This document shows, one piece after another, positions 9,306 to 60,845 of a stretch of DNA of 64,000 nucleotides. The stretch is from assembly GCF_000011385.1 (NCBI RefSeq), contig NC_005125.1, positions 3,038,001 to 3,102,000 on the forward strand, written 5' to 3'. Both the position numbers and the translations under genes were made by a program. How positions within the stretch are numbered: position 1 is the stretch's first letter; every line of letters begins with the position of its first letter. The notes under the pieces were generated by a model that saw only the letters and a program-made list of their open reading frames with translations, ran no database searches and had not been told where the DNA came from. This stretch comes from Gloeobacter violaceus PCC 7421. Its GTDB lineage: Bacteria > Cyanobacteriota > Cyanobacteriia > Gloeobacterales > Gloeobacteraceae.

Positions 9306-9342
9306 TTTGGATATTCCTAAGAATTTGCGTTCCAGGCAGGTT

Positions 9343-10149
9343 TCAAGCAATGGAGTACCCGCCGTCAGCGAGCAGGCCGTGGCCGGAGACAAACGAAGCG
9401 TCCTCTGAAACCAGGAAAGCGACCACTTTGGCCATCTCTTCGGCCGTGCCGGCCCGGCCGGCGACCGTCGCGTTGGCGAAACTGTTTTTGGCTTCGGTGC
9501 TCGGCCAGATGCGGTCCTGGAAGGGCGTGTCGATGATGCCTGGGCAGATGGCGTTGACGCGCACGCCCCGGCGGTACCACTCGAGGGCGGCGCTCTTGGT
9601 CATGCCCAGCACCGCGTGCTTGGTGGCGATGTACAGCGCGGCATTCTCAAAGCCGATGACGCCACCCATCGAGGCGTTATTGACGATGACCCCTCCTCCC
9701 GCGCAGAGCATCGCCTGCGCCTGGTGCTTCATCGAATAGAACACGCTGCGCACATTGGCGTCGAAGACAAGGTCGTAAGTCTCTTTGGTCTGTTCGAGCA
9801 AGGGGGCGAAGACCCCCTCGGTGCCGGCGTTGTTGAAGGCGATATCCAGCTTACCGTAGGTCGCTATTGCCTCAGCTACGAGGCGCTCGACGTAGGCTTC
9901 GTCGGTGACGTCCGCCTGCACGAAAGTCGCCTCGTGGCCTTCGGCGCGGATCGCTTCCACCAGTTCGAGGGTAGGCCCGACGCGCCGGGCACTGGCGACC
10001 ACTTTGGCTCCCCGGCGCGCCAGTTCGAGGGCGGTGGCCCGTCCGATGCCGGAACTTGCTCCCGTGACGATGGCCACCTTGTTCTCAAGGGGGCGGGCAA
10101 AGACGGGCGGTGCACTTTGAATCTGGGCAGTGTTCGCGATGCGGTTCAT
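9343..10149 (-). CDS. Short-chain dehydrogenase/reductase (classical SDR)
   Basis: This 268-residue protein has the cofactor motif TGASSGIGRA, NNAG, the catalytic Tyr-Lys in YIATK and the Ser-bearing strand before it. It should reduce or oxidise a carbonyl/alcohol with NAD(P)(H). The ATG at 10149 is chosen because GGAGAGAT lies 5-12 nt upstream; the longer in-frame start lacks this. It is divergent from the quinone-reductase-like gene. The 286-nt intergenic region contains an inverted repeat GGACT-N8-AGTCC at 10280-10297 that might be an operator (weak). Confidence 0.9.
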   Translation of the reverse strand: MNRIANTAQIQSAPPVFARPLENKVAIVTGASSGIGRATALELARRGAKVVASARRVGPTLELVEAIRAEGHEATFVQADVTDEAYVERLVAEAIATYGKLDIAFNNAGTEGVFAPLLEQTKETYDLVFDANVRSVFYSMKHQAQAMLCAGGGVIVNNASMGGVIGFENAALYIATKHAVLGMTKSAALEWYRRGVRVNAICPGIIDTPFQDRIWPSTEAKNSFANATVAGRAGTAEEMAKVVAFLVSEDASFVSGHGLLADGGYSIA

Positions 10150-10435
10150 AAGATCTCTCCATGGGTTCATCCGCCGTTCGAAACGGCGGCCTGTCCACAG
10201 CGTAGGGGCGAGCCCCAACCGCAATCATCCGGTTTGAGAGAATGGCTTTGATGAAGAAAATTCACGAATCACCGCGATTGGACTCATCTCTTAGTCCGAA
10301 ACGTGTCTTTCAATATTCTGCATTGATGCCTCCAAATCATCGCTGTCTTTCCGAAAAGCCAGATGATTGCGCGGGTAGTTTCTGGTAGCTCTGGGGAAAG
10401 GCCGCTTGCGGTCTCTGACTCGAACCTAGAGGGGT

Positions 10436-11443
10436 ATGACCATGCGCGTCGTTCAGTTTCGCGTTTTCGGAGGATCTGAGGTGCTCGAAGTCGCCGATGC
10501 GGTGCTCCCGCAACCCCACCGCGGCGAAATCGCGGTGGATGTCCGCTACGCGGGCGTCAATTTCGCCGACATCATGTTGCGGCGGGGTGCCCTTGCGGGC
10601 ACGCCGTTGCCCACAGTGCCCGGACTCGAAGTCGCCGGCACCGTCGCCGAGATTGGGCCCGGGGTGAGCGGATTTGCTTACGGCGAGCCGGTTGCGGCCT
10701 TTTCATGGACACCCGGCAAAGCGATGGGCGGCTATGCGCAGCGGGTTGTGCTCGACTCCCGTCTCGCCGTGCCGCTGCGCAGGGCCGAGCGGGAACTTAG
10801 ATACGAAGAAGGGGCCGGCTTTGCCTGCGCCGCCGTCACCGCTTACCAGTTGCTGGCTGATGTTGCCCGCCTGCGACCGGGCGAAACCGTGCTCGTCCAA
10901 TCCGCCGCCGGCGGGGTGGGATCGCTTGCGGTCCAGTTCGCCCGCGCCCTCGGTGCTGCGCGTATTTTCGGTGTGGTCGGCTCTGCGTCTAAAACAGAAG
11001 CCGCCCTGGCCGCCGGTTGCGACCGGGTTGTGCTGCGCGAAGGCTGGATAGAAGCGGTACGCTCGTTCACCGGCGGCCGGGGCGTGGACATCGCGCTTGA
11101 GAGCGTCGGGGGCGACAGCCTGGCTGCTTGTTTGCAAGTGCTCGCCCCGTTCGGGCGCGTCGCGTATTTCGGCGACGCTTCCGGGTCCGGTCCGATTTCT
11201 CTGCCGGCGTTTGACCTGTGGTTCGGGACAAAGGGCGTGCTCGGATACAACATTGGCGGACTCGCCGCCGCTTCGCCCGAAAGTTGGAACGGTGCGGCCA
11301 ATCGCGCCATCGAACTGATCGCCAACGGCGCGGTGCGGCTTGCGCCGACGCGGATCTACCCGCTGGAGCGGGCGGCCGAGGCCCAGCATGCCCTCGAAAC
11401 GCGCGCCTCGACCGGCAAGATGTTGCTCCAGGTCACAAGCTGA
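10436..11443 (+). CDS. NADPH:quinone oxidoreductase-like MDR protein
   Basis: This 335-residue zinc-independent medium-chain dehydrogenase has an N-terminal GroES-like domain (GVNFADIMLRRG, GLEVAGTVAEIGPGV) and a nucleotide-binding domain with AAGGVGSLAVQFARALGA. It lacks the structural-zinc Cys cluster of alcohol dehydrogenases, as expected for quinone or enone reductases. A start at MRVVQF two codons in is also possible. It is divergent from the SDR and convergent with the LysR gene that follows, which may regulate it. The true acceptor is unknown. Confidence 0.88.
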   Translation: MTMRVVQFRVFGGSEVLEVADAVLPQPHRGEIAVDVRYAGVNFADIMLRRGALAGTPLPTVPGLEVAGTVAEIGPGVSGFAYGEPVAAFSWTPGKAMGGYAQRVVLDSRLAVPLRRAERELRYEEGAGFACAAVTAYQLLADVARLRPGETVLVQSAAGGVGSLAVQFARALGAARIFGVVGSASKTEAALAAGCDRVVLREGWIEAVRSFTGGRGVDIALESVGGDSLAACLQVLAPFGRVAYFGDASGSGPISLPAFDLWFGTKGVLGYNIGGLAAASPESWNGAANRAIELIANGAVRLAPTRIYPLERAAEAQHALETRASTGKMLLQVTS

Positions 11444-45197: not shown

Positions 45198-46187
45198 ATG
45201 GCCGACGTCTCGCTTGAACAACTCGACCGCCTACTTAAAATTGACCGGCTCGTCCGCCTCGGGCAGGCGCGCAGCACCGCCCAACTCGCCCGAGCCCTCG
45301 GGGTGAGCACCGGTACCGTGCAGCGGGCCTTGCTGACTCTGCGCGACGAATACGGTGCGCCGCTGGTGGTCGATCGGGTCCGCGGCTACGTCTACCGCGA
45401 AACCACCTGGCAACTGCCGCCCTTGCCCCTTACCCAGGGCGAACTGTTCGTGCTGATGGCCGGCAACCGTCTACTCGCCGCTGCCGAAGGCACCCTCTAC
45501 GAACAGCAAATCCAGTCGGCCATCGCCCAACTGGTGCACCATCTGCCCAAACTCGCCTGGGTGGACCTGGAGACGGTGCGCGACTACCTGCACACCAGTG
45601 CCGAACTGCCCGCCACTTTCAACGATTTCGAAGTCTGGCAACAACTGGGCGACGCCTTCGAATCGGGCCTGCAGACTTTGATTGGCTACGCCGCCCCCGG
45701 CGAGGTACCCATCACCCGCCAGGTCAACCCTTATTTGCTCTACGTCTGGCGCGGCTACGAGCCGTACCTGATTGGCTACGACCTGGGCACCAAACAATTC
45801 GAAGCCTTCAGAGTCGACCGCATCCAAGTCATGCAGACATTGGGCGACAAGTTCACCCGCGACCCGGCCTTTGACCCCCGGCCGGTCATCGACAAAATTA
45901 ATCAACTGCAACTGGGCACCGCCGTCACCCGGGTGAGCGTGCGCCTTACCCCCAGAGCGGCCCGGGCCTTGCGCGGCCGGTTGCTCCACCCGACCCAGGT
46001 GAGCACCACCCTCGCGGACGGTTCGCTCAGGCTGCAGATGCACGTCTCGGAACTCGAAGATCTCAAGCGCTGGGTGCTCGGTTTTGGGGCCGAGGCCGTC
46101 GTCGAAGAACCCCGAGCGCTCGTGGAGCAAATCCGCGCCGAACTCGGCAAACTCAGTGCCCTCTACGGTGCGCCGGTGGCGCGCTGA
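45198..46187 (+). CDS. WYL-domain transcriptional regulator
   Basis: This 329-residue protein has a helix-turn-helix (RSTAQLARALGVSTGTVQRALLTLRDEYGAPLVVDRVRGYVY), a WYL domain (ITRQVNPYLLYVWRGYEPYLIGYDLGTKQFEAFRVDRI) and a WCX-like C-terminal part ending with LEDLKRWVLGFGAEAVVEEPRALVEQI. WYL proteins respond to nucleic acid or nucleotide ligands and often control defence or DNA-damage genes. The 127-nt divergent gap with the NB-ARC gene must contain both promoters. Confidence 0.9.
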   Translation: MADVSLEQLDRLLKIDRLVRLGQARSTAQLARALGVSTGTVQRALLTLRDEYGAPLVVDRVRGYVYRETTWQLPPLPLTQGELFVLMAGNRLLAAAEGTLYEQQIQSAIAQLVHHLPKLAWVDLETVRDYLHTSAELPATFNDFEVWQQLGDAFESGLQTLIGYAAPGEVPITRQVNPYLLYVWRGYEPYLIGYDLGTKQFEAFRVDRIQVMQTLGDKFTRDPAFDPRPVIDKINQLQLGTAVTRVSVRLTPRAARALRGRLLHPTQVSTTLADGSLRLQMHVSELEDLKRWVLGFGAEAVVEEPRALVEQIRAELGKLSALYGAPVAR

Positions 46188-46461
46188 CCACCCCTGCCAT
46201 CAATTTTCATCTTCGGTGGCTGTCGCTTCGGTGTAGTCCTGCCCTGCTTCGGCGGGTGAGGGATCGCGGCGCCGCCTACGGTCGCAGGCTCGTACGCGCC
46301 GCCTGGGGCGGGCGGGATGTTTTCCTCCATCAACTCGTCGAACAATTCGCGAATTTCGAGCGCTTGTGGGGCGACCCACGATCCTCCGCCAGTAGACGTG
46401 AGTACAGGACTATGCTTGGGGGGCGGAGGGAAAAAAACTGCATGTAGGGCCAAGACTGAAC

Positions 46462-46869
46462 TTACAAAGAGCCTCTAAGTTTCGACATCATTGCTGCTTC
46501 ATCCCAATAAGATGATATTTTTTGTATCTTGCCCGCATCATTCATTTCAAAAACACTGATTCCCTCGGAAGTGGCGTGGAGATTGTTCTTTGTGACGACT
46601 TGCATCCTCCACTTGACTGCTGCCCCATTCTTCACAAAGAAAATGTCGTCTTTCGACACTTCTATCTTTTCGAAAAAGTTGGACATTGTTTTGAAGAACC
46701 GATGAGAATCTTTGTGTGCAGATCTTGGAGGGTCTCCAACTGGGTCATGGATAACGGCATCTTCAGCAAAAACTGTCAACCATTCATCTACATTCATGGC
46801 TGCCATGTTGTCAAAATAAGTCGTTACCAACAAGGCGATTTCTTCTGTTGACATCTTGTTTTCATCCAC
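46462..46869 (-). CDS. SnoaL-like / NTF2-fold protein
   Basis: This 135-residue protein has the SnoaL-like pattern: YFDNMAAMNVDEWLTVFAEDAVIHDPVGDPP, then WRMQVVTKNNLHATSEGISVFEMNDAGKIQKISSYWD. The fold covers polyketide cyclases, ketosteroid isomerases and small stress proteins. Codon use is AT-rich against its GC-rich neighbours, which suggests transfer. A second Met at residue 6 (MSTEEI) is an alternative start. The 270 nt before the WYL stop hold only an unsupported frame. Confidence 0.78.
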   Translation of the reverse strand: MDENKMSTEEIALLVTTYFDNMAAMNVDEWLTVFAEDAVIHDPVGDPPRSAHKDSHRFFKTMSNFFEKIEVSKDDIFFVKNGAAVKWRMQVVTKNNLHATSEGISVFEMNDAGKIQKISSYWDEAAMMSKLRGSL

Positions 46870-47033
46870 TCCCGTAGTTTGATAGATTGTCCATTCGGCT
46901 AGCCCTGTTGTAGAAATCCGAGGTACTGAGAAGGCATGACAATCATTAATTCCTATTGAAATTAAAGCTCTTTCTTCTCATCCGTCAACAGAACCTAAAA
47001 ATGCGCCTGGCAGAATCCGGGCGGCCTTGCCCA

Positions 47034-47888
47034 TCAGGAAAACGCCGCCGCGTAGTCGCGCGCGAACGCATTGAAACTGCGCGGCGTTCTGCCAATCGCG
47101 TCCTGGACGCCGGAGGTGATCGCCTCGGCCTCACCGCGCCGGTAGAGCGCGTACTCTTCGATCAATCCCTCCGCCTGCCAGGGTGGGAGCCCGGCACCGC
47201 GCAGGGCCTCGCCCATGGCTTCGGGCGGGATGTCGACAAAGGCGACGTGGTGCCCCAGCGAGGCGGAGAGGTGTTCTGCCATCTCGGTGTGAGTGAGTGC
47301 TTCGGGGCCGGTCAGTTCGTAGGTTTTCCCTTCGTGGCCGCTCTCCGTCAGGGCGGCCACGGCGACCTCTGCGACGTCGCGCACGTCGACGATGCTGACT
47401 TTCGCGTCGCCGGCCGCCGCGTAGAAGGCCTGGCGGGCGGCGATAACCGCGCGGAAATTGAGCAGTCCCTGCATAAAGAGGTTGGGTCTTAGGAACGTGC
47501 AGGCCAGGCCGGACGCCCGCACGGCCGCCTCCACCACCGCATGGTAGCGCTGGAAGCGGCCCTCAGAGCGGGTGTCGGCACCAAACTGCGACAATTTCAC
47601 GATGTGCCTGATACCGATTTGCCGGGCCGCGTCGATGAAGGCGAGTTGTTGGCTTTCGGCGCGTTCGGAGGAAGGGGTGAGCAGGAACGCCCGATCGACG
47701 CCGACGAGGGCGGCAAGGAGAGTCTCGGGGCGGTCGAAATTCCCCTCGACAACCTCGATGTGGGGCAACGCGACAGCGCCGGCCCGCTTGGAGTCGCGCA
47801 CCAGTGCGCGCGCTGAGATGTTTTTCTGCGCAAGCAATCGGACGATTTCCACCCCGTTGTTGCCGGTGGCGCCGGTAATCAAGATCAT
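47034..47888 (-). CDS. NmrA-type atypical SDR
   Basis: This 284-residue Rossmann protein starts MILITGATGNNGVEIVRLLAQKN and has the NmrA/QorB features: ALVRDSKRAG, VEGNFDRPETLLAALVGVDRAFLLTP, VKLSQFGAD and TFLRPNLFMQ. Such proteins bind NAD(P) as sensors or reduce quinones or other small molecules. It lies alone between AT-rich sequence and the pentapeptide gene on the same strand, 26 nt from the pentapeptide stop, so the two could be transcribed together. Confidence 0.9.
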   Translation of the reverse strand: MILITGATGNNGVEIVRLLAQKNISARALVRDSKRAGAVALPHIEVVEGNFDRPETLLAALVGVDRAFLLTPSSERAESQQLAFIDAARQIGIRHIVKLSQFGADTRSEGRFQRYHAVVEAAVRASGLACTFLRPNLFMQGLLNFRAVIAARQAFYAAAGDAKVSIVDVRDVAEVAVAALTESGHEGKTYELTGPEALTHTEMAEHLSASLGHHVAFVDIPPEAMGEALRGAGLPPWQAEGLIEEYALYRRGEAEAITSGVQDAIGRTPRSFNAFARDYAAAFS

Positions 47889-47914
47889 TGGGTCTCCTCC
47901 TCGACTGGGTTCTG

Positions 47915-49288
47915 TTAGCTTTCAGCGCAGCCACACTCGAGCAGCGACGCGTTCCCCTCGTTTCGGGTCCTCACTTGTTTGTTCACGCGCAATTGCTCGG
48001 ACTTCGCCTCGGCGGGGACAACGCCCCCCTCCCCAAGCGAGGCCAGGAGGTGTTCCGGCGAACCGTACTCGAAAACGGCTTCCACGACGTTCGACCGGTG
48101 CATGAGCCCCTCGATTTGCCCGTGCACCCGGCTGCCTTCCTCCGCAATGAGCACGAACGCCAGGCTATCCATGTCGGGGACAATCGAGTGCAACTCCGCA
48201 GGAACGCTCCTGCCGTCGGCGAGGTCGGCGATGACAAACCTCGCCAGGCCCGCTAAAATCCTGACCGTTTCTGTGGCTGCCTGGTTTTGGGTTGTGGCGA
48301 GATCGAACACGACAGGCAGGTGATCGCGCTCGCGCAATGCTTCCCGCAGGGCGTCGAGGACGGGCTTGCGCTCCGGCGAGAAGCGCCCCAGGATCAGCAC
48401 CGCCTTGAAGGTGATCGCGTCGATGGCATCTCGGATCTCGGCGTTGTCGATCAGCAAGTGGAGGAACCGGGCGATCTTCAAGTTGTCTACGCTCACCGCG
48501 GGCTGGCCCACGTCGGTGATGACGAGGTTGCGTTGGTCGGTGCTCTCGTCGATTTTGGCGTCCCAGGCAGCGGTCCCGTAAACCTGGCAGCCTTCCAAAA
48601 CTGCCCCCTCAAGGGAGCAGCCGGTGAGTCGGGTCCTTCGCAAGTCCGCGCCGCGCAGGTCCGCCCCCCTCAAACTCGTGCGTTCCAGGTTCGCCCCGCC
48701 CAGGTCTGCCCCTTTCAGGTTCGCCCCGCCCAGGTTCGCCCCACCTAGGTCCGCCTCGCTTAGGTTTGCCCCGCCCAGGTCCGCCCCGCGCAGATCCGCC
48801 CCGCTCATGAACGCTCTGCTCAGGCTCACCCCGCTCAGGTTCGCCCCGCCCAGGTTTGCCTCCCTCAGGTTCGCTCTGTTCAGTTCTGCCCCGCCCAGGT
48901 TTGCCTCCCTCAGGTCGGCCCAGTTCAGGTGGGCCCAGTTCAGGTTCGCCCCATTCAGGTCCGCCCCGCTCAGGTCGGCCCAGTTTAGGTTCGCCCAGTT
49001 CAGGTTCGCCCAGTTCAGGTTCGCCCCTCTCAAGTCTGCCTCGCTTAGGTTTGCCCCGCCCAGGTTCGCCCCTTCCAGATCCGCTCCGCCCAGGTCGGCT
49101 CCACCCAGGTCGGCTCCGTCCAGGTCGGCTCCACCCAGGTTGGCTCCGCCCAGGTCGACTCCACCCAGGTTGGCTCCGCCCAGGTCCGCCGCCGACAAAT
49201 CGGGCCGAATGCCCCCGTTGGCCCTCCGCCACGCCGAGAACTGTGCACTTCCGCAAAGGAGTATTTTCAGGTGCTCTAGCTTTGCCAT
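47915..49288 (-). CDS. Pentapeptide-repeat protein with C-terminal TIR-like domain
   Basis: This 457-residue protein starts MAKLEHLKILLCG (GGAG upstream). From residue 30 to about 235 it has roughly 41 tandem A(D/N)LXX pentapeptides, forming a right-handed quadrilateral helix. After a linker, residues about 297-410 show an alternating strand/helix domain (AVLILGRFSPERKPVLDALREALRERDHLPVVFDL..., ARFVIADLADGRSVPAELHSIVPDM) like the TIR/SLOG-type C-termini known on bacterial pentapeptide proteins. The TIR-like call is by pattern. The product may be cytoplasmic and part of a signalling or defence protein. An unsupported extension of 105 codons upstream was left out. Confidence 0.82.
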   Translation of the reverse strand: MAKLEHLKILLCGSAQFSAWRRANGGIRPDLSAADLGGANLGGVDLGGANLGGADLDGADLGGADLGGADLEGANLGGANLSEADLRGANLNWANLNWANLNWADLSGADLNGANLNWAHLNWADLREANLGGAELNRANLREANLGGANLSGVSLSRAFMSGADLRGADLGGANLSEADLGGANLGGANLKGADLGGANLERTSLRGADLRGADLRRTRLTGCSLEGAVLEGCQVYGTAAWDAKIDESTDQRNLVITDVGQPAVSVDNLKIARFLHLLIDNAEIRDAIDAITFKAVLILGRFSPERKPVLDALREALRERDHLPVVFDLATTQNQAATETVRILAGLARFVIADLADGRSVPAELHSIVPDMDSLAFVLIAEEGSRVHGQIEGLMHRSNVVEAVFEYGSPEHLLASLGEGGVVPAEAKSEQLRVNKQVRTRNEGNASLLECGCAES

Positions 49289-50594
49289 TGGGGGTGCTCC
49301 ACAAATTAGTGTCCCTTCTCGATGTGTGCACGGGGGGGGTCGGTACGCAGTCGGATCGCCCCGGGTCCCCCGCCAAGCCGGCGCTCGGGGGAGCGCGCCG
49401 GTACGAAAAAGGTCCGAGAAATTGCCCAACGGACAGGCTGCCGCGATTGCATCCAAACAACCGGTCCAACCATTGGGATACAAACCTACTGGCCCGCGTC
49501 GTCGGCGTGCTGGGCAGCGTGCTGTGCCGCCGCCTCTTTGAATCCCCTGCGGTATAGATAGCTCAAGCTCATCAGCACGTATGTGACGGGATGGGGATGA
49601 CAATGCAGACGGTGGTTCCAGCCCAGGCGATACAGGCGATAGTCAAGCGAAGACAACAGCGAACTGCTGTCGGAACAGGGGGTGCGCCGGCTCAATAGTT
49701 TCATTGGTTTCATTCGCGTAACTCGTTGCTGGCTGCGGAGCGGGGAACGGGCGCTTCGTGGCGGTCGGCAGCCGCGATCCGAACGCCGCGTCCGAAGACA
49801 GTGGCAAGCGGCGCAGAACCTGCGGCACACACTTATCCCGCAGTGCGAAGCGGATTGAGCAGTTGGGCAAGCACTCCGACATCGAGCCGGACACCGGCGG
49901 CACAGCCACCGCCGAAGCGGTACCCCATGCTGGAAAGCAGCGGCTTGCCGATGTGCAGGTATTCGTCGTCGACCCAAAAGGCGGCTCCTGCCCCCACTCT
50001 CAAACGTGAGCGACTGGTCCCAGTCATCGATCACGGGGTTGGGCTGGTAGAAGTGAACGGACGGGATACAAAACAGAAAAACGCCATGGGCGGCTCTCCC
50101 GGTAGAACCTGTTTGTCCGTCCATCTTGCCTTTGCAAACCATCTCAATGGAACCTCCCAAACCCTCGGCCGAACGATAGCGGCAACCCCCGAAGTTTGCG
50201 AGGGCAAACGGGAGCAGATCTTGCGCAAAACAGTCACCCGTGCAAGTTTTTTAACCTACCGTGCGGGCTGCTGTTCGGCCATCCTGCCAAGGGCGTTCTG
50301 TCTCAAAACCCTTGTATCCAAAAACGCGCGTCGGGTTTAGCCCCCCGCCAAAACTTTTTTTCCGATACCGCCCGAAAAGCGACGTCCGGGTGTCCGTCCG
50401 TCCAATAAATAAGGGCCTTTGCGCGGCGTCTGCCGACCGCCGTCGCTCGGCAACTCCCTATTTCGAGGAGATTGCGCAAACCGGATTGCGCTATCATTCC
50501 CCCTAGCACTGTGCAGCGGTATTTGTGTTATCAAAACCGTTGCCCGCAGCCGTCTTTCCTTTTCAGCCCTTTCCGGCAGTGTGAGGTCACACCA
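49289..50594. other. 1.3-kb region without an intact gene
   Basis: The pentapeptide and sigma-like genes diverge across this stretch, so it contains both promoters. Protein-like fragments in different minus-strand frames (49486-50160) look like remnants of one decayed gene and are listed separately. The remainder (50160-50594) has T- and C-rich runs and no supported frame, RNA gene or hairpin. Confidence 0.45.
49486..50160 (-). pseudogene. Possible decayed gene, frames shifted
   Basis: Minus-strand fragments read sensibly only if frames are joined: FYQPNPVIDDWDQS, then in another frame VGAGAAFWVDDEYLHIGKPLLSSMGYRFGGG and RLDVGVLAQLLN, then, back in the first frame, RLYRLGWNH...TYVLMSLSYLYRRGF near the end. 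The alternation of short hydrophobic and polar residues and the final aromatic-rich strand recall an outer-membrane beta-barrel. This is tentative: single frames carry no domain and I could not test coding potential. Confidence 0.25.
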
Positions 50595-52520
50595 GTGGAC
50601 AGCAGCGTTCCTTTCGAGCGGCGGTTCCCCCATAAAAGCAGGGCGGAGCAATTGCACCGACTAGCTTTGGCAATAAGACCCATCGAATGCAAACGACAGC
50701 AGGTCGTTGGCGCACCGGGTCTACTTCCTGCTCAGAGAATTCAGCACCTGGGGCGGCTGGAGCACGAGGCGGCTCGGGCGGGTCTTGGGGAGTTCCACAG
50801 CGTGCTCGACCGGCTGTGTCGGGAGTTCTGCCGACGCTCGCCCGCGGGGAGCCACCCGCGCTTCGACGCAGAACTGTTGAGCGAAGAGGTGAAGCTCATG
50901 GTCCACGCTCGCCTGCCCCATTTCGACCCCGAGCGGGGCCACTTTGGGCCCTGGTTCAAGGTGTACGTCCTGCTACCGGTGTACAAGCGTTTGTGCTCCG
51001 AGATCGATGCCGACTGGGGCCGCCGGGCGCCGCAGACGCAAGGAGGGCGCGTGCGCCGCTGGCTGAAGCGGTGGGTGCACGCGCCCCTGTCCCTCGACGC
51101 GCCGGTGGGAGACGCTCGCCAGGATGGGGAACTGCCCGCCTTGGGCGAGACGGTCGCAAGCGGTGGCGGCGGCCCCGAAACCCAGTTGCTCGAAGATCAG
51201 TGCCGGGAGCGGTTTTTGCGAGCACTGGAGCGATTGGCGGAAGCGGAGCGGGTGCTCATCGAACGGGTACACCTGCGCGGGGAGCGGCAACAGGAGGTGG
51301 CCCGATCGGTGGGGCTGACACCCGGCCGGGTGAGCCAGAAGCTCAAGCGCGCCGCCGGGAGGCTGGCGGAGACCCTGGAAGAGAGCTTTGAAGACGAATG
51401 CGGCGGAACGGCCTTTTGCCGAGGACTCTCGGATGGAGGAGGGCAGGCCGCGACCGGGAGCCGCGCAGCCCCTGGCACGGTGGCCCAAGCGGCATTCGAG
51501 CGGGTGTTTCCGGAAATGGTGCGCCGCTCGGGGTGGCGAGGGACCGAATTTGCACAGCCCGAATCCGCCGGTGGCCCTGAGGGAGAGCTGCTCAACGAGC
51601 TACTGGCAGGCCCGGCGCAGGCAGGGTCGTGGTCAACCGGTTCACCGCGGGCGGCATCTTTGGCGACGGGGGCGGTGGCCGCGGCCTGGGCGCTGTTCGT
51701 GCTCGCGCCGTCAGAGTTTCAGCCCGTCTTTCATCCGCCGGATGGGCGAGGACCACAACCTACCACTGGTGACTCTCGCCGCCCTGCTTCGAGTCGGGCG
51801 GGAAGTCCTGCGGAACATCCGAATTCGGCGGCGAGCGGCGGTTCTCTCAGGACGGTTGCCCCCGCGTTCCCCGTGAGGCCTCCTGAGCAGACAAACAGGC
51901 ACAACCCGATCGCGGTGAAAGGGCCACAGGCAGGGCGGAGCGTGCCCAGGGTCGAGGACAATGGCAGCCCCTCCGTTCCAAAAGCATCGCCGGGGGGCTT
52001 AGCCAAAGTACCCAAGGCTGTCGCAAACCCCGACAGGGCGGGGACGGCTCGGGTGCAGCAGCCCCCGGCGACAGACACCGGCTCGCTCCCGGATGAGGTG
52101 CGGAACCCAAGTGGCTCCCGCGCCTTGCCGTCGGGTGCGCAAAGCGTATGCTCGGCGCTGGCGGCGTCGGCCCCGGTACCGTCCGGACTGGAGGGCTTCG
52201 CCGTGATCGAGGTCACCCTGGGGGTTGACGGCACCTTGGTAGAAGGCAGTCATTCTCCCCAGATACTCGTCTCCGGCGGCGAGCAGGTGGACGCGTTCGT
52301 CTTGCGCTCGCTGCAGACCCTGGCGGCTGGCGGGTCGGAGGCCAGGACGGCGGCGGAGCGCGAAGCCATCATTGCCGGAAGCGGCAGATACCGTGTGGCG
52401 TTGGAGGCGGAGCTGAACCGCTGGAGCTGTCAGGAGGCAAAGCAAGATCCTGCAGAGAACGTTCCTGCATCGGGGATGGATGCGGGTGCGGGTGCCGGGG
52501 CCGTGCACAAGTACGAATGA
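50595..52520 (+). CDS. Sigma-70-like protein with membrane helix and predicted periplasmic domain
   Basis: With the GTG at 50595 (GTGAGG upstream) this is 641 residues. Residues about 90-144 resemble sigma region 2 (EEVKLMVHARLPHFDPERGHFGPWFKVYVLLPVYKRL). Residues about 206-264 resemble region 4 (RFLRALERLAEAERVLIERVHLRGERQQEVARSVGLTPGRVSQKLKRA). A single hydrophobic helix follows at about 353-371 (LATGAVAAAWALFVLAP), then a Pro/Ser/Gly-rich linker of about 160 residues and a C-terminal domain (530-610; FAVIEVTLGVDGTLVEG...DAFVLRSLQTLAAGG...RYRVALEAEL) resembling TonB C-terminal domains. Predicted topology: sigma part in the cytoplasm, C-terminus in the periplasm. Its TGA overlaps the CHAT gene start (ATGA). 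An ATG earlier in the frame exists but has no RBS. Confidence 0.78.
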   Translation: MDSSVPFERRFPHKSRAEQLHRLALAIRPIECKRQQVVGAPGLLPAQRIQHLGRLEHEAARAGLGEFHSVLDRLCREFCRRSPAGSHPRFDAELLSEEVKLMVHARLPHFDPERGHFGPWFKVYVLLPVYKRLCSEIDADWGRRAPQTQGGRVRRWLKRWVHAPLSLDAPVGDARQDGELPALGETVASGGGGPETQLLEDQCRERFLRALERLAEAERVLIERVHLRGERQQEVARSVGLTPGRVSQKLKRAAGRLAETLEESFEDECGGTAFCRGLSDGGGQAATGSRAAPGTVAQAAFERVFPEMVRRSGWRGTEFAQPESAGGPEGELLNELLAGPAQAGSWSTGSPRAASLATGAVAAAWALFVLAPSEFQPVFHPPDGRGPQPTTGDSRRPASSRAGSPAEHPNSAASGGSLRTVAPAFPVRPPEQTNRHNPIAVKGPQAGRSVPRVEDNGSPSVPKASPGGLAKVPKAVANPDRAGTARVQQPPATDTGSLPDEVRNPSGSRALPSGAQSVCSALAASAPVPSGLEGFAVIEVTLGVDGTLVEGSHSPQILVSGGEQVDAFVLRSLQTLAAGGSEARTAAEREAIIAGSGRYRVALEAELNRWSCQEAKQDPAENVPASGMDAGAGAGAVHKYE

Positions 52521-55453
52521 AAGTGGATGTTGGGGAGATGCTGTTATCTTTTCCTCTGAGTCGTAGCGCCCGTCGGTGGTTGTGCACCTTGTCACTGGTG
52601 GCGAGCCTGAATGGTGCTTGCCCTTTTTATCCTGTTCAGGCACAACCGAGCGAGGAACTGGTCGAAGCGCAACGGCTGTACGATCAGAGCGTGAAGTTGT
52701 GGGAAGCGAGCCAGTACAGGGAGGCCCAGCCCCTGGCCGAACGGGCTTTGGCCATCCGCACAAAGGCCCTGGGAGAGAAGCACCTGGAAGTGGCCCAAAG
52801 CCTGCACAGTCTGGGCAATCTGTACCTCAAGCAGGGCAACTACGCCGGGGCCGAGCCCCTTTACAGACGCGCCCTGGCCATTCGCGAGAAGGCCCTCGGG
52901 CCCAATCACCCGGAGGTGGCAAGAAGCCTCAACAGTCTGGCGGTCCTGTACATCGATCGGGGCAACTACGCCGGGGCCGAGTCGCTCCACAAGCGCGCCC
53001 TGGCCATCCGCGAGAAAGCCCTGGGAGGGGAGCACCCGGATGTGATCCAGACCCTCAACAACCTGGCAGCCCTGCACGCGGAACGGGGTGACTACACGGA
53101 GGCCGGGTTACTGTTCCGGCGCGCCCTGGCCCTTTTGGAGAAGGCCCTCGGGCCCGATCACCCGGAGGTGGCAAGAGGCCTCAACAACCTGGCTGCCCTG
53201 TACGGGCGGCTGGGCGATTACACGGAGGCCGGGTTACTGTTCCGGCGCGCCCTGGCCCTTTTGGAGAAGGCCCTCGGGCCCGATCACCCGGAGGTGGCAA
53301 GAAGCCTCAACAACCTGGCTACCCTGTACGGGCGGCTGGGCGATTACACGAAGGCCGAGCCGCTGTCCCAGCGCGCCCTATCTATCCTGGAGAAGGCCCT
53401 GGGGACCGAGCACCCGGAGGTGGGTCAGAGCCTCGTCAATCTGGCCATCCCGCGCCGAAAACGGGGCGATTACACGGAGGCGGAGCCGCTCATCAGGCGT
53501 GCCCTGCTCCTCCGCGAAAAATTCCTGGGACCGGAGCACCCGGATGTTGCCACTGGCTTTGAGGAGCTGGCTTTGTTGCGCCTCGGCCAGGACCGGCTCG
53601 ACGACGCCCGCCAGGCCCTCCAAAAGGCCATCGACATTCAGGAACAAAACCTCGCCCTCAACCTTTCTTCCACCTCCCAATCGCAAAACCAGGCCTACCT
53701 CGCCACCCTCAAAGACACCGCCGACTTTGCCCTCTGGCTCCACCTCGCCCGCCTCGGGGACGACCCCGAGGCCGCCCGCCTCGCCCTCACCGCCGCCCTT
53801 AGCCGCAAAGGGCGGGTGCTGGAAGAGGCCACCCTTGCCCTCGCCCGCCTGCGCCGACGTCTGCCTGCCGACCGCCAGCAGCCGTTGCAGCAATTGGCCG
53901 ATGCCCGCGCCCAACTGGCCTCCCTCGTTTTTCAGGAATCTGGCCCGTTGCCTTCCGAGCAATACCAGGCCCGGGTGGGCGAATTGCGGCAGCGGGTTCG
54001 CCGACTGGAGGACGGCCTGGAGGGTACCGGCGGCCCTTTGCGCATGCTCACCCGCCCGCTCAGCCTCCAGGCCGTCCAGCAGGCCCTCCCCAAGGACGCC
54101 GTGCTCGTCGAGTTCGTGCTCTACCGCCCCTTCGATGCGAAAGCAGCCACACCCGATCGGCAATTTGGGGCATCGCGCTACGCCGCCTACCTGTTGCGAC
54201 CCACTGGAGCACCCCTCGGTGTCGATCTTGGCGATGCCCGACAGATAGACGATCTGGTGACCGCCTGGCACTCGTGGTTGCTCGATCCCACCTCGCCCGT
54301 CGATGGTCCGGTCCACAAGCTCGCCCGCCTTCTGCACCAAAAACTCCTCGCCCCCCTGGGAAGTCAGTTGCAGGCCAAGCACCTGCTCATTGCTCCCGAC
54401 GGACAGCTCAACACCCTGCCCTTCGCCGCCCTCGTCGGACAAGATGGCCACCCTCTGCTGCAAGATCACACCCTCACCTACCTTGTCTCCGGTCGCGAAC
54501 TGCCCCGGCTGGCCCAGGCCAGCTCGGCTCCTCGATCCGCGCCGCTGGTGTTGGGCGGGCCGGACTTCGCCCGCGCCGCCGCCGGCCTATCCCCTGCCAC
54601 CCAACAGAGGGCGGGGCCAGACTACGGGGCAGAGACGCGCCTGGAGGAGAACCTGCGCTCCCCCGCCCTGACGGGCTTTACCGTCCGGCCCCTCCCTGGG
54701 GCCAAAGTCGAGGCTGCCGCCGTCGCCCGGCTGCTGGGCATTCCCTCCACCGAACTATTGACTGGGGCGCGGGCCACCGAGAACGCCCTCAAGGCGACTC
54801 GCTCCCCCGCCCTGTTGCACCTGGCCACCCACGGCTTCTTCCTCAAAGATCAAGGCGGTGCTGAGAAAGAAATCGGGCTCCAGGAGCCGCTGTTGCGCTC
54901 CGGGGTGGCCCTGGCGGGCTTCAACGCCCGCTCCTCGGGGACCGAGGACGGCGTGCTCACCGCCCTCGAAGCCCAGGGGCTCGATCTCGAAGGGACCGAG
55001 CTGGCGGTGGTGTCGGCCTGCCAGAGCGGAGCCGGTGCAGTCGTCGGCGGCGAGGGGGTGCAGGGGCTCAGGCGGGCACTGGCCCTGGCGGGAACGAGAA
55101 GCCAGGTGCTGGCGCTGTGGCCGGTGGGGGACCGGACAACGGCGGATTTGATGGAGCGGTTCTACCGGAGGTTGGCAGCGGGAGCAGGACGCTCTGAGGC
55201 CCTTCGGCAGGCGCAATTGGCGGTGTCAGGCCAGCAACGACGGTCGCACCCTTTTTGGTGGGCATCCTTCGCGGCGTCGGGGGACTGGCGGCCGGTGCAA
55301 TTGTCTCAGCACCGACGTAGAGCTTTACTGTTGCATGAATTCGGTACTGTTCACAGGGCAAACACATTTGAGACCGCAAAGCGGACGACAAGTCCAACGA
55401 AATCCCGGCCATCGTCCCGCTTTCAAGAAGCGATCCCCTGGGAGAAGCGTTAG
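52517..55453 (+). CDS. Secreted TPR-CHAT protease
   Basis: This 978-residue protein has a signal peptide (to about residue 43, PVQAQ), then about eight kinesin-light-chain-type TPRs of 42 residues (50-375), a helical segment and a C-terminal CHAT caspase-like domain with the His in LHLATHGFF (H772) and Cys in VVSACQSGAG (C835). CHAT proteases cleave specific protein partners. An atypical tail of about 45 residues (from about 934) follows the normal family end (HPFWWASFAASGDWRPV). The start overlaps the sigma-like gene by ATGA. The stop codon lies inside the CIRCE element of groESL. Confidence 0.9.
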   Translation: MKVDVGEMLLSFPLSRSARRWLCTLSLVASLNGACPFYPVQAQPSEELVEAQRLYDQSVKLWEASQYREAQPLAERALAIRTKALGEKHLEVAQSLHSLGNLYLKQGNYAGAEPLYRRALAIREKALGPNHPEVARSLNSLAVLYIDRGNYAGAESLHKRALAIREKALGGEHPDVIQTLNNLAALHAERGDYTEAGLLFRRALALLEKALGPDHPEVARGLNNLAALYGRLGDYTEAGLLFRRALALLEKALGPDHPEVARSLNNLATLYGRLGDYTKAEPLSQRALSILEKALGTEHPEVGQSLVNLAIPRRKRGDYTEAEPLIRRALLLREKFLGPEHPDVATGFEELALLRLGQDRLDDARQALQKAIDIQEQNLALNLSSTSQSQNQAYLATLKDTADFALWLHLARLGDDPEAARLALTAALSRKGRVLEEATLALARLRRRLPADRQQPLQQLADARAQLASLVFQESGPLPSEQYQARVGELRQRVRRLEDGLEGTGGPLRMLTRPLSLQAVQQALPKDAVLVEFVLYRPFDAKAATPDRQFGASRYAAYLLRPTGAPLGVDLGDARQIDDLVTAWHSWLLDPTSPVDGPVHKLARLLHQKLLAPLGSQLQAKHLLIAPDGQLNTLPFAALVGQDGHPLLQDHTLTYLVSGRELPRLAQASSAPRSAPLVLGGPDFARAAAGLSPATQQRAGPDYGAETRLEENLRSPALTGFTVRPLPGAKVEAAAVARLLGIPSTELLTGARATENALKATRSPALLHLATHGFFLKDQGGAEKEIGLQEPLLRSGVALAGFNARSSGTEDGVLTALEAQGLDLEGTELAVVSACQSGAGAVVGGEGVQGLRRALALAGTRSQVLALWPVGDRTTADLMERFYRRLAAGAGRSEALRQAQLAVSGQQRRSHPFWWASFAASGDWRPVQLSQHRRRALLLHEFGTVHRANTFETAKRTTSPTKSRPSSRFQEAIPWEKR
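53090..53341 (+). repeat. Recent tandem duplication of one TPR unit (2 x 126 bp)
   Basis: Units 53090-53215 and 53216-53341 differ at three of 126 positions. Each encodes one 42-residue TPR (DYTEAGLLFRRALALLEKAL...). The next unit is much more divergent, so this is a recent in-frame duplication. Confidence 0.9.
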
Positions 55454-55476
55454 CACTTGACTAAAGAGAGTGCTAA
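55450..55476 (+). promoter_or_regulatory. CIRCE element (HrcA operator) of groESL
   Basis: TTAGCACTT-N9-GAGTGCTAA matches CIRCE (TTAGCACTC-N9-GAGTGCTAA) except for one base. A possible -35 (TTGACT, 55457-55462) lies within it, 17 nt before GATGAA at 55480. Repression by HrcA is expected. The TAG stop of the CHAT gene (55451-55453) is inside the left arm. Confidence 0.9.
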
Positions 55477-55484
55477 CGTGATGA

Positions 55485-57527
<2,043 letters not shown>

Positions 57528-57547
57528 CCCCACCAAACCACGCCTGC

Positions 57548-57577
57548 AAAGCCTGCGCCGCAACCGGTGCAGGCTTT
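57548..57577 (+). terminator. Rho-independent terminator after groEL
   Basis: AAAGCCTGC...GCAGGCTTT forms a stem of 9 bp plus a GCC/GGT extension with one wobble pair, loop GCAACC, then TACTTTT. It lies 20 nt after the groEL stop. Confidence 0.75.
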
Positions 57578-57648
57578 ACTTTTGGTGGGGCAATCAGCCA
57601 AATGGTGTGCGCCGTGTATTAATAGGCAGAGAACAAACGAGCGACAGC

Positions 57649-58368
57649 ATGGGTACCGGTCTGGAAGTGCGGGGGTTGACGGCGGGCTACGGGCAAATTG
57701 AAGTGCTGCACCAGGTGAATCTGCACGTAGGAGCGGGGGAACTGGTGACGGTGATTGGCCCCAACGGCGCCGGCAAATCGACGCTGCTGCGCACCATCTC
57801 GGGCCTCATCCGGCCCACCGCCGGGGAGGTGCTTTTAGACAACCGGCGCCTCGACCGGCTCTCGGCCGACCTGATTGTCCGCACCGGGCTGATGCACGTT
57901 CCGGAGGGGCGGCGCATCTTCTCGCGCCTCACGGTGCTCGAAAACCTGGAGATGGGCGCCTACACCCGCAACGACCGCATCGAAACGGACCTCGAAGACA
58001 TTTTTAATCTGTTTCCGATTCTCAAGGAGCGCCGCTACCAGCGCGCCGGCACCCTCTCGGGAGGCGAGCAGCAGATGCTCGCCATCGGCCGGGCCTTACT
58101 CGGCAAACCGCGCTTGCTGGTGCTCGACGAGCCCAGCATGGGCCTCGCACCGCTGATTGTGCAAAGCATCTTTCAGATCATTGAGCGCATCCGCTCCCAG
58201 GGAGTGATGGTGCTCTTAGTCGAACAGAACGCTCTGCAGGCGTTAAAACTGGCCGACCGGGGCTACGTGCTCGAAAACGGCCGCATCGCCCTTGAAGGTC
58301 CGGCCAATGAACTACTCGTCTGCGAAGAAGTACGCCGGAGCTATTTGGGCGAATCGATGGTCAGCTGA
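57649..58368 (+). CDS. Branched-chain amino-acid type ABC ATPase (LivF-like)
   Basis: This 239-residue ATPase has GPNGAGKSTLLRTISG (Walker A), the LivF-specific segment MHVPEGRRIFSRLTVLENLEMGAY, TLSGGEQQMLAIGRALLGKPRLLVLDEPSMGLAP (signature and Walker B) and VEQN in the H-loop region. LivF pairs with LivG and the LivHM permeases for branched-chain or other amino acids or urea; none of them is adjacent. The start MGTGLEV is chosen by family boundary, the RBS being weak. Confidence 0.9.
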   Translation: MGTGLEVRGLTAGYGQIEVLHQVNLHVGAGELVTVIGPNGAGKSTLLRTISGLIRPTAGEVLLDNRRLDRLSADLIVRTGLMHVPEGRRIFSRLTVLENLEMGAYTRNDRIETDLEDIFNLFPILKERRYQRAGTLSGGEQQMLAIGRALLGKPRLLVLDEPSMGLAPLIVQSIFQIIERIRSQGVMVLLVEQNALQALKLADRGYVLENGRIALEGPANELLVCEEVRRSYLGESMVS

Positions 58369-58389
58369 GGTTCCTCCCTCCATGGCCTG

Positions 58390-58791
58390 TTATATGCAGG
58401 AAAATCGCACGCAAGAAAGTGCGCGCACCTGCTGAATCGCTTCGAAATCGCGATCACTGTGCACAAGTGCAAGTCGGCGCTCGATGGCCAGCTGAGCGAT
58501 GCAGCAATCGATGCTGCTGCGGACAGTTAATCCTCGCCGCCGCAGGTCGTAGTAGATGCGCGCTGCCTGTGTCCAGGCGTATTCCGATAGTTCAGCGTAG
58601 TCTTGCTCCTGGAGATGGGTTTGCAACAGCACCCATTCGCGCTGATCGCGGCAACCCTGCAGCAACTCCATCTGCGTGAAGCGACTCAAAAATACTGGCT
58701 CGTCACCGACTACTCGCTCGAAACACTCCCTCGCCATCCCGGTGCGATCGCGAAGAATACTCACCCACACCGAGGTGTCAACCAGAAACAC
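58390..58791 (-). CDS. vapC: VapC-type PIN-domain toxin
   Basis: This 133-residue PIN-domain RNase has FLVDTSVWVSILRDR (first acidic residue), an Arg/Glu segment (MELLQGCRD), SSIDCCIAQLAIERRLALVHSDRDFEAI with the later Asp residues. GTG at 58791 is chosen, overlapping the antitoxin stop by 14 nt; a longer upstream start is unlikely. VapC toxins cut tRNA or rRNA and are neutralised by VapB encoded immediately upstream. Confidence 0.9.
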   Translation of the reverse strand: MFLVDTSVWVSILRDRTGMARECFERVVGDEPVFLSRFTQMELLQGCRDQREWVLLQTHLQEQDYAELSEYAWTQAARIYYDLRRRGLTVRSSIDCCIAQLAIERRLALVHSDRDFEAIQQVRALSCVRFSCI

Positions 58792-58990
58792 GACGATCCA
58801 CGCGCAGAGCTTCGGGGTCAAAATCATCGGCAAATCGAATTTGCCCGCTTAGATCGAGTAAGTTGCGCTTCTTGCGCGCGCGGATAAGTTCTTGCAGTGC
58901 CAGCTGCAGTAATTCTTTCTTGGTTCGGACGTTGGTCAATTGGAAGGCTTCTTCGAGAAGCGCGTCGTCAAGTTCGACGTTGGTACGCAT
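58778..58990 (-). CDS. vapB: VapB-type antitoxin
   Basis: This 70-residue protein has the ribbon-helix-helix start MRTNVELDDALLEEAFQLTNVRTKKELLQLALQELIRARKKRN of the VapB/DUF2191 group, with an acidic, less-ordered C-terminus (FADDFDPEALRVD) that should bind VapC. The ATG is directly preceded by the GTGTAT-repeat operator region. It overlaps vapC, giving a normal bicistron. Confidence 0.9.
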   Translation of the reverse strand: MRTNVELDDALLEEAFQLTNVRTKKELLQLALQELIRARKKRNLLDLSGQIRFADDFDPEALRVDRRVSG

Positions 58991-58993
58991 AAT

Positions 58994-59027
58994 GTGTATA
59001 GCGTGTATGTATGTGTGTATTATACAC
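58994..59027. promoter_or_regulatory. vapBC operator/promoter with GTGTAT repeats
   Basis: GTGTAT occurs at 58994, 59003 and 59015 and, with its inverse ATACAC at 59022, forms the 13-bp palindrome GTGTATTATACAC (59015-59027). On the minus strand this contains TATAAT, a perfect -10. Repeated half-sites at a VapB promoter fit autorepression by the VapBC complex. Confidence 0.6.
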
Positions 59028-59148
59028 GTTGCCAGATTGACGCGGACCCCTGGCGACCAGTACCTGCGCGCCCAGCTTGGTGGAAAAAGTAGCCGCGCCT
59101 GGCCGGGAAAAGCCTACCCGACGGCCGATGTCTACGAACAAGCCGGTC

Positions 59149-59655
59149 TCAATCGAAGTAAAAAAGCGTCACGACCTTGCGCAACTCCTCGGCAAATTCG
59201 CACCCTTCAAGCAGTACTCGCGAGTCGTGAAAGGCAAAACAAATCAATTGCTGCGCCTTTTCGATGATTTCACGGTTGCAGACGACGCTCGCCTCACCTA
59301 GGGGCATGTGGTTGTTTTCGGGGTGTTCGACCAGATGAATAATGTTTTCGAGCTGGTCGCGGGTTTCGCGCGGTTGGCGATCCAGACTCTGGGGCAAGAT
59401 TACCGTCAGCGCGTTGGGATCGGCGCGCACCACACCCCGGATCACCGCCTGGTTGGTGCCGGCGGCGCCGCTGGTGAGGATGCGGTTGCCGGTGAGGGCC
59501 AGGGCGTAGCTCAAGATTTCGATCAGTTGCTGATGGCCGAGGGGGACGTGGCGGGAACCCAGGATGGCAATTTGCTTGGAAGCCGTCTGCTGGATGGTCA
59601 TCAACTCCAGCAAAAATGTATCCAGTGCAGGCGGCAATTCGGTGGCTCGTGTCAA
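59149..59655 (-). CDS. DprA/Smf-like (LOG-superfamily) protein
   Basis: This 168-residue single-domain protein follows the DprA Rossmann pattern: IAILGSRHVPLGHQQLIEILSYALALTGNRILTSGAAGTNQAVIRGVVRADP, then ALTVILPQSLDRQ. It lacks the SAM and winged-helix parts of full DprA (about 370 residues). TTG at 59655 is chosen because GGAGAGG lies upstream; ATG at 59601 is an alternative. It may bind nucleotides or DNA; a role in recombination is not proven. Confidence 0.75.
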   Translation of the reverse strand: MTRATELPPALDTFLLELMTIQQTASKQIAILGSRHVPLGHQQLIEILSYALALTGNRILTSGAAGTNQAVIRGVVRADPNALTVILPQSLDRQPRETRDQLENIIHLVEHPENNHMPLGEASVVCNREIIEKAQQLICFAFHDSRVLLEGCEFAEELRKVVTLFYFD

Positions 59656-59702
59656 ATGCCTCTCCAGTCAGGCCCAGGGCCAAAAACAGCGTACCTAGCT
59701 TA

Positions 59703-60845
59703 TCAAATGCTGGCGGGCATTTTGAGCAACAGATAGTAGAGCCGCGCCGGGGCATTGATCTGCCCGGCCCGGTCCTCCGCCTCAGGCCCCGTGCCCACGA
59801 ACAGATCCAACCGGCCGCGCCCGCGGATGGCCGCCCCCGTGTCATGGTCGAGCACGAACTGCCGGAGCATCCCGGCGCGGGTCTGGGCCTGGATGAACAA
59901 CAGTGCCCCCGGCGGAAAGACGCTCTTGTCCATCGCCGCCGAGTGCATCGCCGTCACCGGAAAGCCGAGGCTGCCGTAGGGACCGCCGTCGTCGGTCCAA
60001 CGGAAAAAAACGTAGGACTCGTTTTTGTGCAAGTAGGATTCAAGCTCCTCCGGGTGGGCGCGAAAGTAAGCTTTGACCGCCTGCAGCGTCAGGTCTTCCT
60101 CGCGGATTTTGCCGTCGGCCACCAGCGCCTTGCCGATGCTCTGGTAGGGCCTATCGGTCTTGGCGGCAAAGCCCACCGAGCGGGTCGCACCGTCGGTCAG
60201 CACCAGCTTCGCCGAGCCCTGGACGTGCACCAAAAAGCGTTCGAGCGGATCGGCCAGCCAGATCAGTTCGCGGCCTGCGAGCAAATTCTGCTTTTCGATC
60301 TGCGCGCGGGTGGGGTAGGGCCGCACCCCGGCGGCGGTGCGCTGACCGAGACCGCGCACGCCGTCGGTGACAAGGTCGCCGGGGGTTTTGTAGAGCGGGT
60401 AGCGGTAGGTTGCGGTAGGTTTGCGGCTCGCCCGGTAGACCGGCGCGAAGTAGCCGGTGATGAGCACCTCGGGGCTGTCGGGCTCGGGATTGACCCGATA
60501 GAGGTCAAATTCGCGCCCCACCCGCACGCTGAATGCTTCTGCGCTAGGCGAAGTCTTCAAGATGGCCCGAAAGCGCCTGAGACTCGCAGCAAGCCGTTCG
60601 CGGGTGATCCCCCGGCGTGGATAGGCGCGCGAAGCTGCCGGGGTAGAGAGATACCGCAGGCTGGTATCCACACTCTTGATGAGCGTCCAGCGGTCGTGCC
60701 AGCCACCCGCAAGATCCACCTCCTCGAAGCTCGCACCCACCAAAAGCGGCTCCTCAGAGCGCGCCACCGGAGCGCAGACCAGCCAGCCGGCCAGCAGCGC
60801 GGCGCTAATCGTCGTCGAGATTATCCCAGTCGGTTGGGGTTTCAC
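59703..60845 (-). CDS. mltA: Membrane-bound lytic transglycosylase MltA-like
   Basis: This 380-residue protein has a signal peptide (ending PVARS), the MltA domain (ITGYFAPVYRASRKPTATYRYPLYKTP..., FLVHVQGSAKLVLTDG) and a 3D domain with the conserved Asp triplet (VLDHDTGAAIRGRGRLDLFVGTG). It cleaves peptidoglycan with anhydro-muropeptide formation. No lipobox Cys is evident, unlike E. coli MltA, so it may be periplasmic rather than a lipoprotein. The start overlaps the preceding small gene by 41 nt. Confidence 0.92.
   Translation of the reverse strand: MKPQPTGIISTTISAALLAGWLVCAPVARSEEPLLVGASFEEVDLAGGWHDRWTLIKSVDTSLRYLSTPAASRAYPRRGITRERLAASLRRFRAILKTSPSAEAFSVRVGREFDLYRVNPEPDSPEVLITGYFAPVYRASRKPTATYRYPLYKTPGDLVTDGVRGLGQRTAAGVRPYPTRAQIEKQNLLAGRELIWLADPLERFLVHVQGSAKLVLTDGATRSVGFAAKTDRPYQSIGKALVADGKIREEDLTLQAVKAYFRAHPEELESYLHKNESYVFFRWTDDGGPYGSLGFPVTAMHSAAMDKSVFPPGALLFIQAQTRAGMLRQFVLDHDTGAAIRGRGRLDLFVGTGPEAEDRAGQINAPARLYYLLLKMPASI

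Follow-up and report, generated by a model that had tools for sequence, protein, structure and literature searches.

Two adjacent genes lie on the forward strand of the Gloeobacter violaceus PCC 7421 genome (one contig of 4,659,019 bp) within a 64,000-nucleotide stretch, here called the window, whose first letter is position 1. The first encodes a protein of 641 aa that is best read as a sigma/anti-sigma hybrid and the second a TPR-CHAT protein with a predicted signal peptide; both open reading frames, and the coordinates given for them in an earlier note on this DNA, were confirmed. The pair is flanked by a divergent pentapeptide-repeat gene on one side and by groES/groEL on the other. The pentapeptide-repeat gene (47915-49603, - strand) has a homologue of 62% identity that also adjoins the ortholog pair in a second Gloeobacter genome (G294); that ortholog pair does not adjoin groESL. 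A CIRCE-like inverted repeat, TTAGCACTT-N9-GAGTGCTAA, was read by eye at 55450-55476 ahead of groES, where it overlaps the CHAT stop codon (TAG, 55451-55453). The features of the two genes are as follows.

50595..52520, +, sigma/anti-sigma-like hybrid gene; GTG start, 641 aa, from the list of open reading frames
50595..51434, +, ECF-like sigma domain in the cytoplasm, residues 1-280; contains regions 2 and 4 and an extra helical stretch at the N-terminus; TIGR02937, Sigma70_r4 and structure matches
51462..51629, +, short cytoplasmic anti-sigma-like segment (residues 290-345) with an RRSGW motif
51651..51707, +, transmembrane helix (residues 353-371); Kyte-Doolittle mean 1.89 over 19 residues
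51708..52127, +, disordered, proline-rich, putative periplasmic linker; pLDDT mostly below 50 at residues 345-510
52101..52103, +, Arg503, candidate cleavage residue
52128..52439, +, putative periplasmic C-terminal domain with a predicted TolA/TonB C-terminal fold; AlphaFold, folded alone, pTM 0.69
52149..52430, +, Cys519 to Cys612, the sole two cysteines after the transmembrane helix, probable disulfide
52538..55453, +, secreted (predicted) TPR-CHAT gene; an in-frame ATG upstream at 52517 overlaps the sigma stop and is not conserved
52538..52642, +, signal peptide with predicted cut VQA/QPS, from a reading of the sequence (RSARRWLCTLSLVASLNGACPFYPVQA/QPS) and homologues with hydrophobic N-termini
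52700..53660, +, kinesin-light-chain-type TPR repeats; TPR_12 and TPR_10, seven matched stretches each
54317..55285, +, CHAT domain; PF12770, 293 bits
54830..54832, +, predicted catalytic His, residue 772 from the first ATG, conserved in 15/15
55019..55021, +, predicted catalytic Cys, residue 835 from the first ATG, conserved in 15/15

The sigma/anti-sigma-like hybrid

The GTG at 50595 is shared as the hybrid's start by the G294 ortholog (68% identity), on whose upstream side a stop lies close by. The domain that follows matches sigma-70 profiles, a point on which the earlier note had been prepared to give up its reading: TIGR02937 scores 51.1 bits over residues 73-260 (cut-off 42.9) and region 4, as Sigma70_r4, 24.8 bits against the Pfam cut-off of 24.1. 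Pfam calls region 2 in 4 of 19 family members, the window protein not being one of them. In the AlphaFold model of the full hybrid the sigma helices are mostly at pLDDT >90, residues from about 345 to 510 are disordered and the C-terminal domain is ordered again. The main matches of the predicted structure in both Foldseek and VIA-align are sigma factors, the top VIA-align match being E. coli sigmaE (1or7; Z 7.7, rmsd 5.4 over 113 residues). Of the two regions claimed previously, region 4 thus stands by profile, while region 2 fits the structure and lacks a Pfam call in the window protein. The cytoplasmic sigma part also has two conserved pairs of cysteines, residues 75/79 (CxxxC, 50817-50831) and residues 269/275 (CxxxxxC after region 4, 51399-51419), which could serve metal binding or redox sensing.

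The sigma domain is followed by the anti-sigma-like segment, predicted with pLDDT of about 84-92 over residues 300-340, which corresponds to the N-terminus of a separate gene in the split relatives L070, L019, L071 and L020. Judged by its position, the RRSGW segment may inhibit the sigma domain. A zinc-binding anti-sigma domain of the HxxxCxxC (ECF52) type was not found, residues 276-352 of the window protein containing neither Cys nor His. The single transmembrane helix reported earlier is borne out: it lies at residues 353-371, and its position is identical in all family members (Kyte-Doolittle 1.6-2.4). Beyond it, the linker and the C-terminal domain would lie in the periplasm.

The fold of the C-terminal domain matches TolA/TonB C-terminal domains with moderate confidence. 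TolA-III and TonB-CTD structures take all of the first seven places in VIA-align, at Z 6.7-4.9 and rmsd 3.2-5.2 for 78-97 residues, and the next row, at Z 4.3, consists of unrelated proteins. The TolA/TonB signal, of moderate Z, stems from VIA-align, a re-ranking of Foldseek's own matches; Foldseek by itself gave weak unrelated matches to this domain and did not rank TolA/TonB first. A Pfam scan of the anti-sigma/periplasmic part of 18 members matched no family, FecR families included. Exactly two cysteines follow the transmembrane helix in 14/14 proteins, one at each end of the C-terminal domain, and the pair (Cys519 and Cys612 in the window protein) probably forms a disulfide in the periplasm.

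Relatives and paralogs encode this protein in two genes, one for the sigma domain and one for the segment, transmembrane helix, linker and periplasmic domain. Some split forms carry the TolA-like C-terminal domain (L070, L019, L074, L078) and others carry different C-terminal domains (L071, L081, L020, L079). For example, L070 has the order sigma, membrane protein, CHAT; the first two genes overlap as ATGA and the CHAT gene begins 84 nt further on. Since the two genes are separate in relatives, the window gene is best read as a fused sigma/anti-sigma-like pair, with a sigma domain, a transmembrane helix and a domain predicted to be periplasmic in one polypeptide.

The TPR-CHAT protein and its linkage to sigma genes

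The earlier note had joined the two genes by an ATGA overlap. The letters are present in the window, where the ATG at 52517 overlaps the sigma stop codon, but the G294 ortholog reads ATAG with a 1-nt indel there, and translational coupling through this overlap was therefore rejected. The homologues L069, L017, L076 and L080 align at an ATG 21 nt downstream, at 52538, 17 nt after the sigma stop. The overlap is thus neither conserved in the ortholog nor the CHAT start in homologues, and the real start is probably 52538. The signal peptide ascribed to this protein is readable, with RSARRWLCTLSLVASLNGACPFYPVQA before QPS. N-termini were judged by eye, as an automatic AxA-only rule was too strict and missed clear cases, the window CHAT included. 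By the same reading most of the CHAT proteins sampled from other cyanobacteria begin with a signal-peptide-like N-terminus, so secretion as such is not special. The solved structures nearest to the TPR repeats are kinesin light chains. H772 and C835, described before as intact, are present, and their equivalents are kept in all 15 Gloeobacteraceae CHAT proteins compared; with the PF12770 match, this dyad predicts a peptidase.

Linkage was surveyed in nine genomes of the order, and sigma hybrids or split forms were found near CHAT genes in five of them (G000, G294, G295, G296 and G298). The arrangements include i) sigma then CHAT, in the window, L069, L070, L075, L076 and L017; ii) CHAT then sigma, in L018, L073 and L077; and iii) divergent (L072) and convergent (L080) pairs. 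In L017 a gene for a secreted GDSL lipase (10122-11126, - strand) stands between the sigma hybrid and CHAT. At least six lineages of Gloeobacter and its family have sigma-CHAT neighbourhoods. The order differs among them, and this variation, together with the convergent pair, means that there is no fixed operon. What had been proposed about conservation accordingly divides: the pair is conserved in close relatives, with an ortholog in G294 and linkage in five genomes, and the gene order is not, order and orientation differing among paralogs.

In other cyanobacteria and the family's MAG, a sigma-like ORF was found in one of 36 CHAT neighbourhoods of 20 kb, 6.5 kb off. The comparison (12/33 versus 1/36) gives a Fisher p of 4e-4, which is an indication and no independent test because the genomes are related. 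The zone of about 6 kb around CHAT genes makes up about 1.5% of the present genome, and 3-4 of the genome's five sigma paralogs fall inside it; the chance of such linkage is near 4e-5 for three of five and near 3e-7 for four of five when paralogs are treated as independent. Trees group the window and L069 for sigma and for CHAT, and the deeper branches disagree between the two proteins. Not every paralog is linked: there are solitary CHAT genes and solitary sigma genes, and the TolA-like lineage L019/L074/L078 has no CHAT nearby. Related sigma genes without CHAT nearby were also seen at L071 (8642-10359), L081 (9076-10763) and L082 (3499-4356); two of the three have membrane-protein partners, whose C-terminal domain is not TolA-like. 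A scan of GTDB contigs with the window protein returned no match, and a pattern-based scan with alignment A5 returned Aphanocapsa lilacina HA4352-LM1 and Gloeobacterales ES-bin-313 and no others; a search of this kind could have missed relatives in other phyla.

At two loci a protease of another family fills the slot. L020 (3994-7466, - strand) and L079 (8850-12320, + strand) encode a split sigma, a membrane protein with a different periplasmic domain and then, third in the operon, a secreted S8 subtilase (PF00082); a CHAT gene lies 2-4 kb from each operon. These loci support a theme of sigma, membrane protein and secreted protease; a subtilase gene under the control of the sigma factor would also fit. 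In L020, two tandem repeat-protein genes with FNCDGKPDI-type repeats (7679-9806, + strand) separate the CHAT gene from the sigma/subtilase operon.

Both genes are under purifying selection relative to the G294 ortholog: dN/dS is about 0.14 for the sigma domain (dN 0.10, dS 0.71), about 0.15 for the periplasmic domain and about 0.20 for the CHAT domain (dN 0.13, dS 0.67). The linker is the fastest-evolving part (dN 0.54, dN/dS about 0.55). Within it, 10 of 11 CHAT-linked proteins (5 of 6 lineages) share a hydrophobic-Arg pair placed 15-19 residues ahead of the first periplasmic Cys, the sixth lineage having Thr-Arg; the pair is absent from the sole TolA-like lineage without a nearby CHAT. In the window protein this places the candidate cleavage residue at Arg503. 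Shuffled linkers matched this result, at any offset, in 3 of 2000 trials; as the motif was chosen post hoc and the lineages share descent, it is a lead. Co-variation of CHAT with the periplasmic domain versus the sigma domain was not significant among six lineages (Mantel r 0.34, 103 of 720 permutations). L070 is the one suggestive case, its sigma part being nearest to L019 and its periplasmic domain nearest to the window protein.

Proposed mechanism and rival explanations

These features led to a model in which the CHAT protein cuts the hybrid; the locus would then be a sigma/anti-sigma switch contained in one polypeptide and served by a periplasmic protease of its own. It is the reading we favour, tentatively and at a little short of an even call. 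The sigma domain would be kept at the membrane by the fused anti-sigma-like segment and the transmembrane helix, and the flexible linker would present a TolA/TonB-like sensor domain, closed by the probable disulfide, in the periplasm. The exported TPR-CHAT protein would be triggered either by an envelope signal engaging the TPR groove or by a change of state of the sensor domain. It would then cut the linker, possibly at Arg503, and the sensor domain would be shed, as happens to RseA or IutY at site 1; release of the sigma domain would then fall to one of the cell's site-2 (M50) proteases. M50-family proteases are encoded in the genome. Against the model stand the unfixed gene order, the non-significant co-variation and the TolA-like lineage with no CHAT nearby; secreted CHAT proteins are also common in cyanobacteria without a sigma neighbour, so the CHAT protein may have other targets. 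The periplasmic location, the anti-sigma function, cleavage by CHAT, the cut site, site-2 release and the signal are steps that we infer.

The main rival makes the CHAT protein the output. The membrane-held sigma would sense the envelope through its TolA/TonB-like domain and be freed by general proteases, and it would switch on the neighbouring CHAT gene, whose product would act on other envelope proteins. ECF sigma factors commonly control themselves and neighbouring genes, and linkage in any orientation, on the same strand in either order, divergent or convergent, asks for proximity alone. A secreted lipase and a secreted subtilase in the same slot are what a secreted-enzyme regulon would be expected to contain, and IutY, released by Prc and RseP, needs no dedicated neighbour protease (PMC5411451). 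This explanation leaves the conserved hydrophobic-Arg motif in the fast-evolving linker unexplained, and we regard it as possible but doubtful.

Alternatively, the CHAT protein could be a binding partner of the hybrid, its TPR groove holding the linker or the sensor domain and gating the sigma factor without cleavage. The closeness of the repeats to the peptide-binding TPRs of kinesin light chains, the proline-rich linker as a plausible ligand, and the independence of substrate binding from activation in Csx29 (PMC10028731) would suit such a role; the His and Cys kept in 15/15 proteins favour catalysis of something, and we consider it unlikely. Chance or historical adjacency with no functional link, in keeping with the unfixed order and the solitary CHAT and sigma paralogs, is very improbable given the linkage frequencies above (again with paralogs taken as independent) and its recurrence in other genomes.

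Comparison with known systems and meaning

Sigma/anti-sigma hybrids freed by two-step proteolysis are known, namely P. putida IutY (PMC5411451) and the ECF48, ECF52 and ECF53 groups (PMC8999054). IutY, an ECF243 hybrid (PMC5411451, PMC8999054), has a cytoplasmic sigma, a transmembrane helix and a periplasmic domain in one polypeptide, as here, and is released by successive proteolysis, which for the present protein is a proposal. IutY works through Prc and RseP, both general proteases, together with a siderophore receptor of the outer membrane, and it has no CHAT, whereas the present hybrid has a linked gene for a predicted secreted CHAT protein. The hybrid's periplasmic domain resembles TolA/TonB instead of the FecR type of IutY/FecR signalling, and no TonB-dependent receptor gene was noticed on a reading of the ORFs of window 46000-60000. 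The ECF48, ECF52 and ECF53 proteins (PMC8999054) likewise have sigma fused to a regulatory extension that bears a transmembrane helix, with proteolysis proposed, and in SCO4117 of Streptomyces coelicolor (PMC8999054) the extracytoplasmic part is, as here, proline-rich at first and then folded. Their zinc-finger anti-sigma and carbohydrate-binding domains are not seen in the window protein.

TolA and TonB resemble the hybrid in having a transmembrane helix and a long periplasmic linker, and their C-terminal domain has the fold predicted for that of the hybrid; they lack a cytoplasmic sigma domain, which the hybrid carries on that side. The His of their SHLS motor-coupling motif is absent from the transmembrane segments listed across the family, so there is no sign of that motif. 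Bacterial caspase-like proteins also stand next to ECF sigma genes in the EACC2-caspase/ECF sigma/DUF1822 neighbourhoods (PMC8195603), in a different protein architecture; neither DUF1822 nor EACC2 was seen here.

Modules of protease, anti-sigma and sigma are known from CRISPR systems, namely Csx29-Csx30 (PMC10028731) and CalpL-CalpT-CalpS (PMC11229360). The latter, of type III CRISPR, differs in having a Lon-type protease activated by cyclic oligoadenylate. The type III-E Csx29/Csx30/CASP-sigma system (PMC10028731) is closer: a TPR-CHAT protease is genetically linked to an ECF-like sigma and an inhibitor, the anti-sigma role at the present locus being a presumed one. That system is cytoplasmic and RNA-activated, whereas here the CHAT protein is predicted to be secreted and the sigma membrane-held. 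No PF03787 (RAMP) match was found in the whole genome at E<=0.001, hence no type III CRISPR effector (Cas7-11/RAMP, Craspase) at that threshold, and PADLOC gave generic TPR and subtilase matches and nothing else. The earlier suggestion of a protease-gated, membrane-held sigma outside CRISPR stands up, as a proposal, to the checks on pair conservation, sigma profiles, CHAT dyad and signal peptide, and no RAMP protein was found; a conserved gene order is refuted. In its wider form it would make the secreted TPR-CHAT protein a dedicated, signal-controlled site-1 protease of a membrane-held sigma, a CRISPR-free envelope counterpart of Csx29-Csx30-sigma that builds on a sigma/TolA-like hybrid and has a sister version with a subtilase; this we put forward as a possibility somewhat short of likely.

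The statement that no such arrangement had been described has to be narrowed, as tethered hybrids and CRISPR protease-sigma modules are known. The literature searched, which covered few subscription papers, yielded no description of a membrane-held sigma with a secreted CHAT partner in the envelope. New here are a secreted CHAT protein linked to the hybrid, a C-terminal domain like that of TolA/TonB, and a paralogous operon in which a secreted subtilase takes the place of CHAT. Secreted cyanobacterial CHAT proteins are abundant and no paper naming a substrate of one was found; for such proteins this locus supplies a putative substrate, a possible cut site and an output that can serve as a reporter. 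If the proposed switch is true, the CHAT-protease-to-sigma logic of type III-E CRISPR would work outside CRISPR, in the envelope, and a single genus would provide both split and fused sigma/anti-sigma forms, a natural series for studying the origin of hybrids. The system would then sit in the earliest-branching cyanobacteria.
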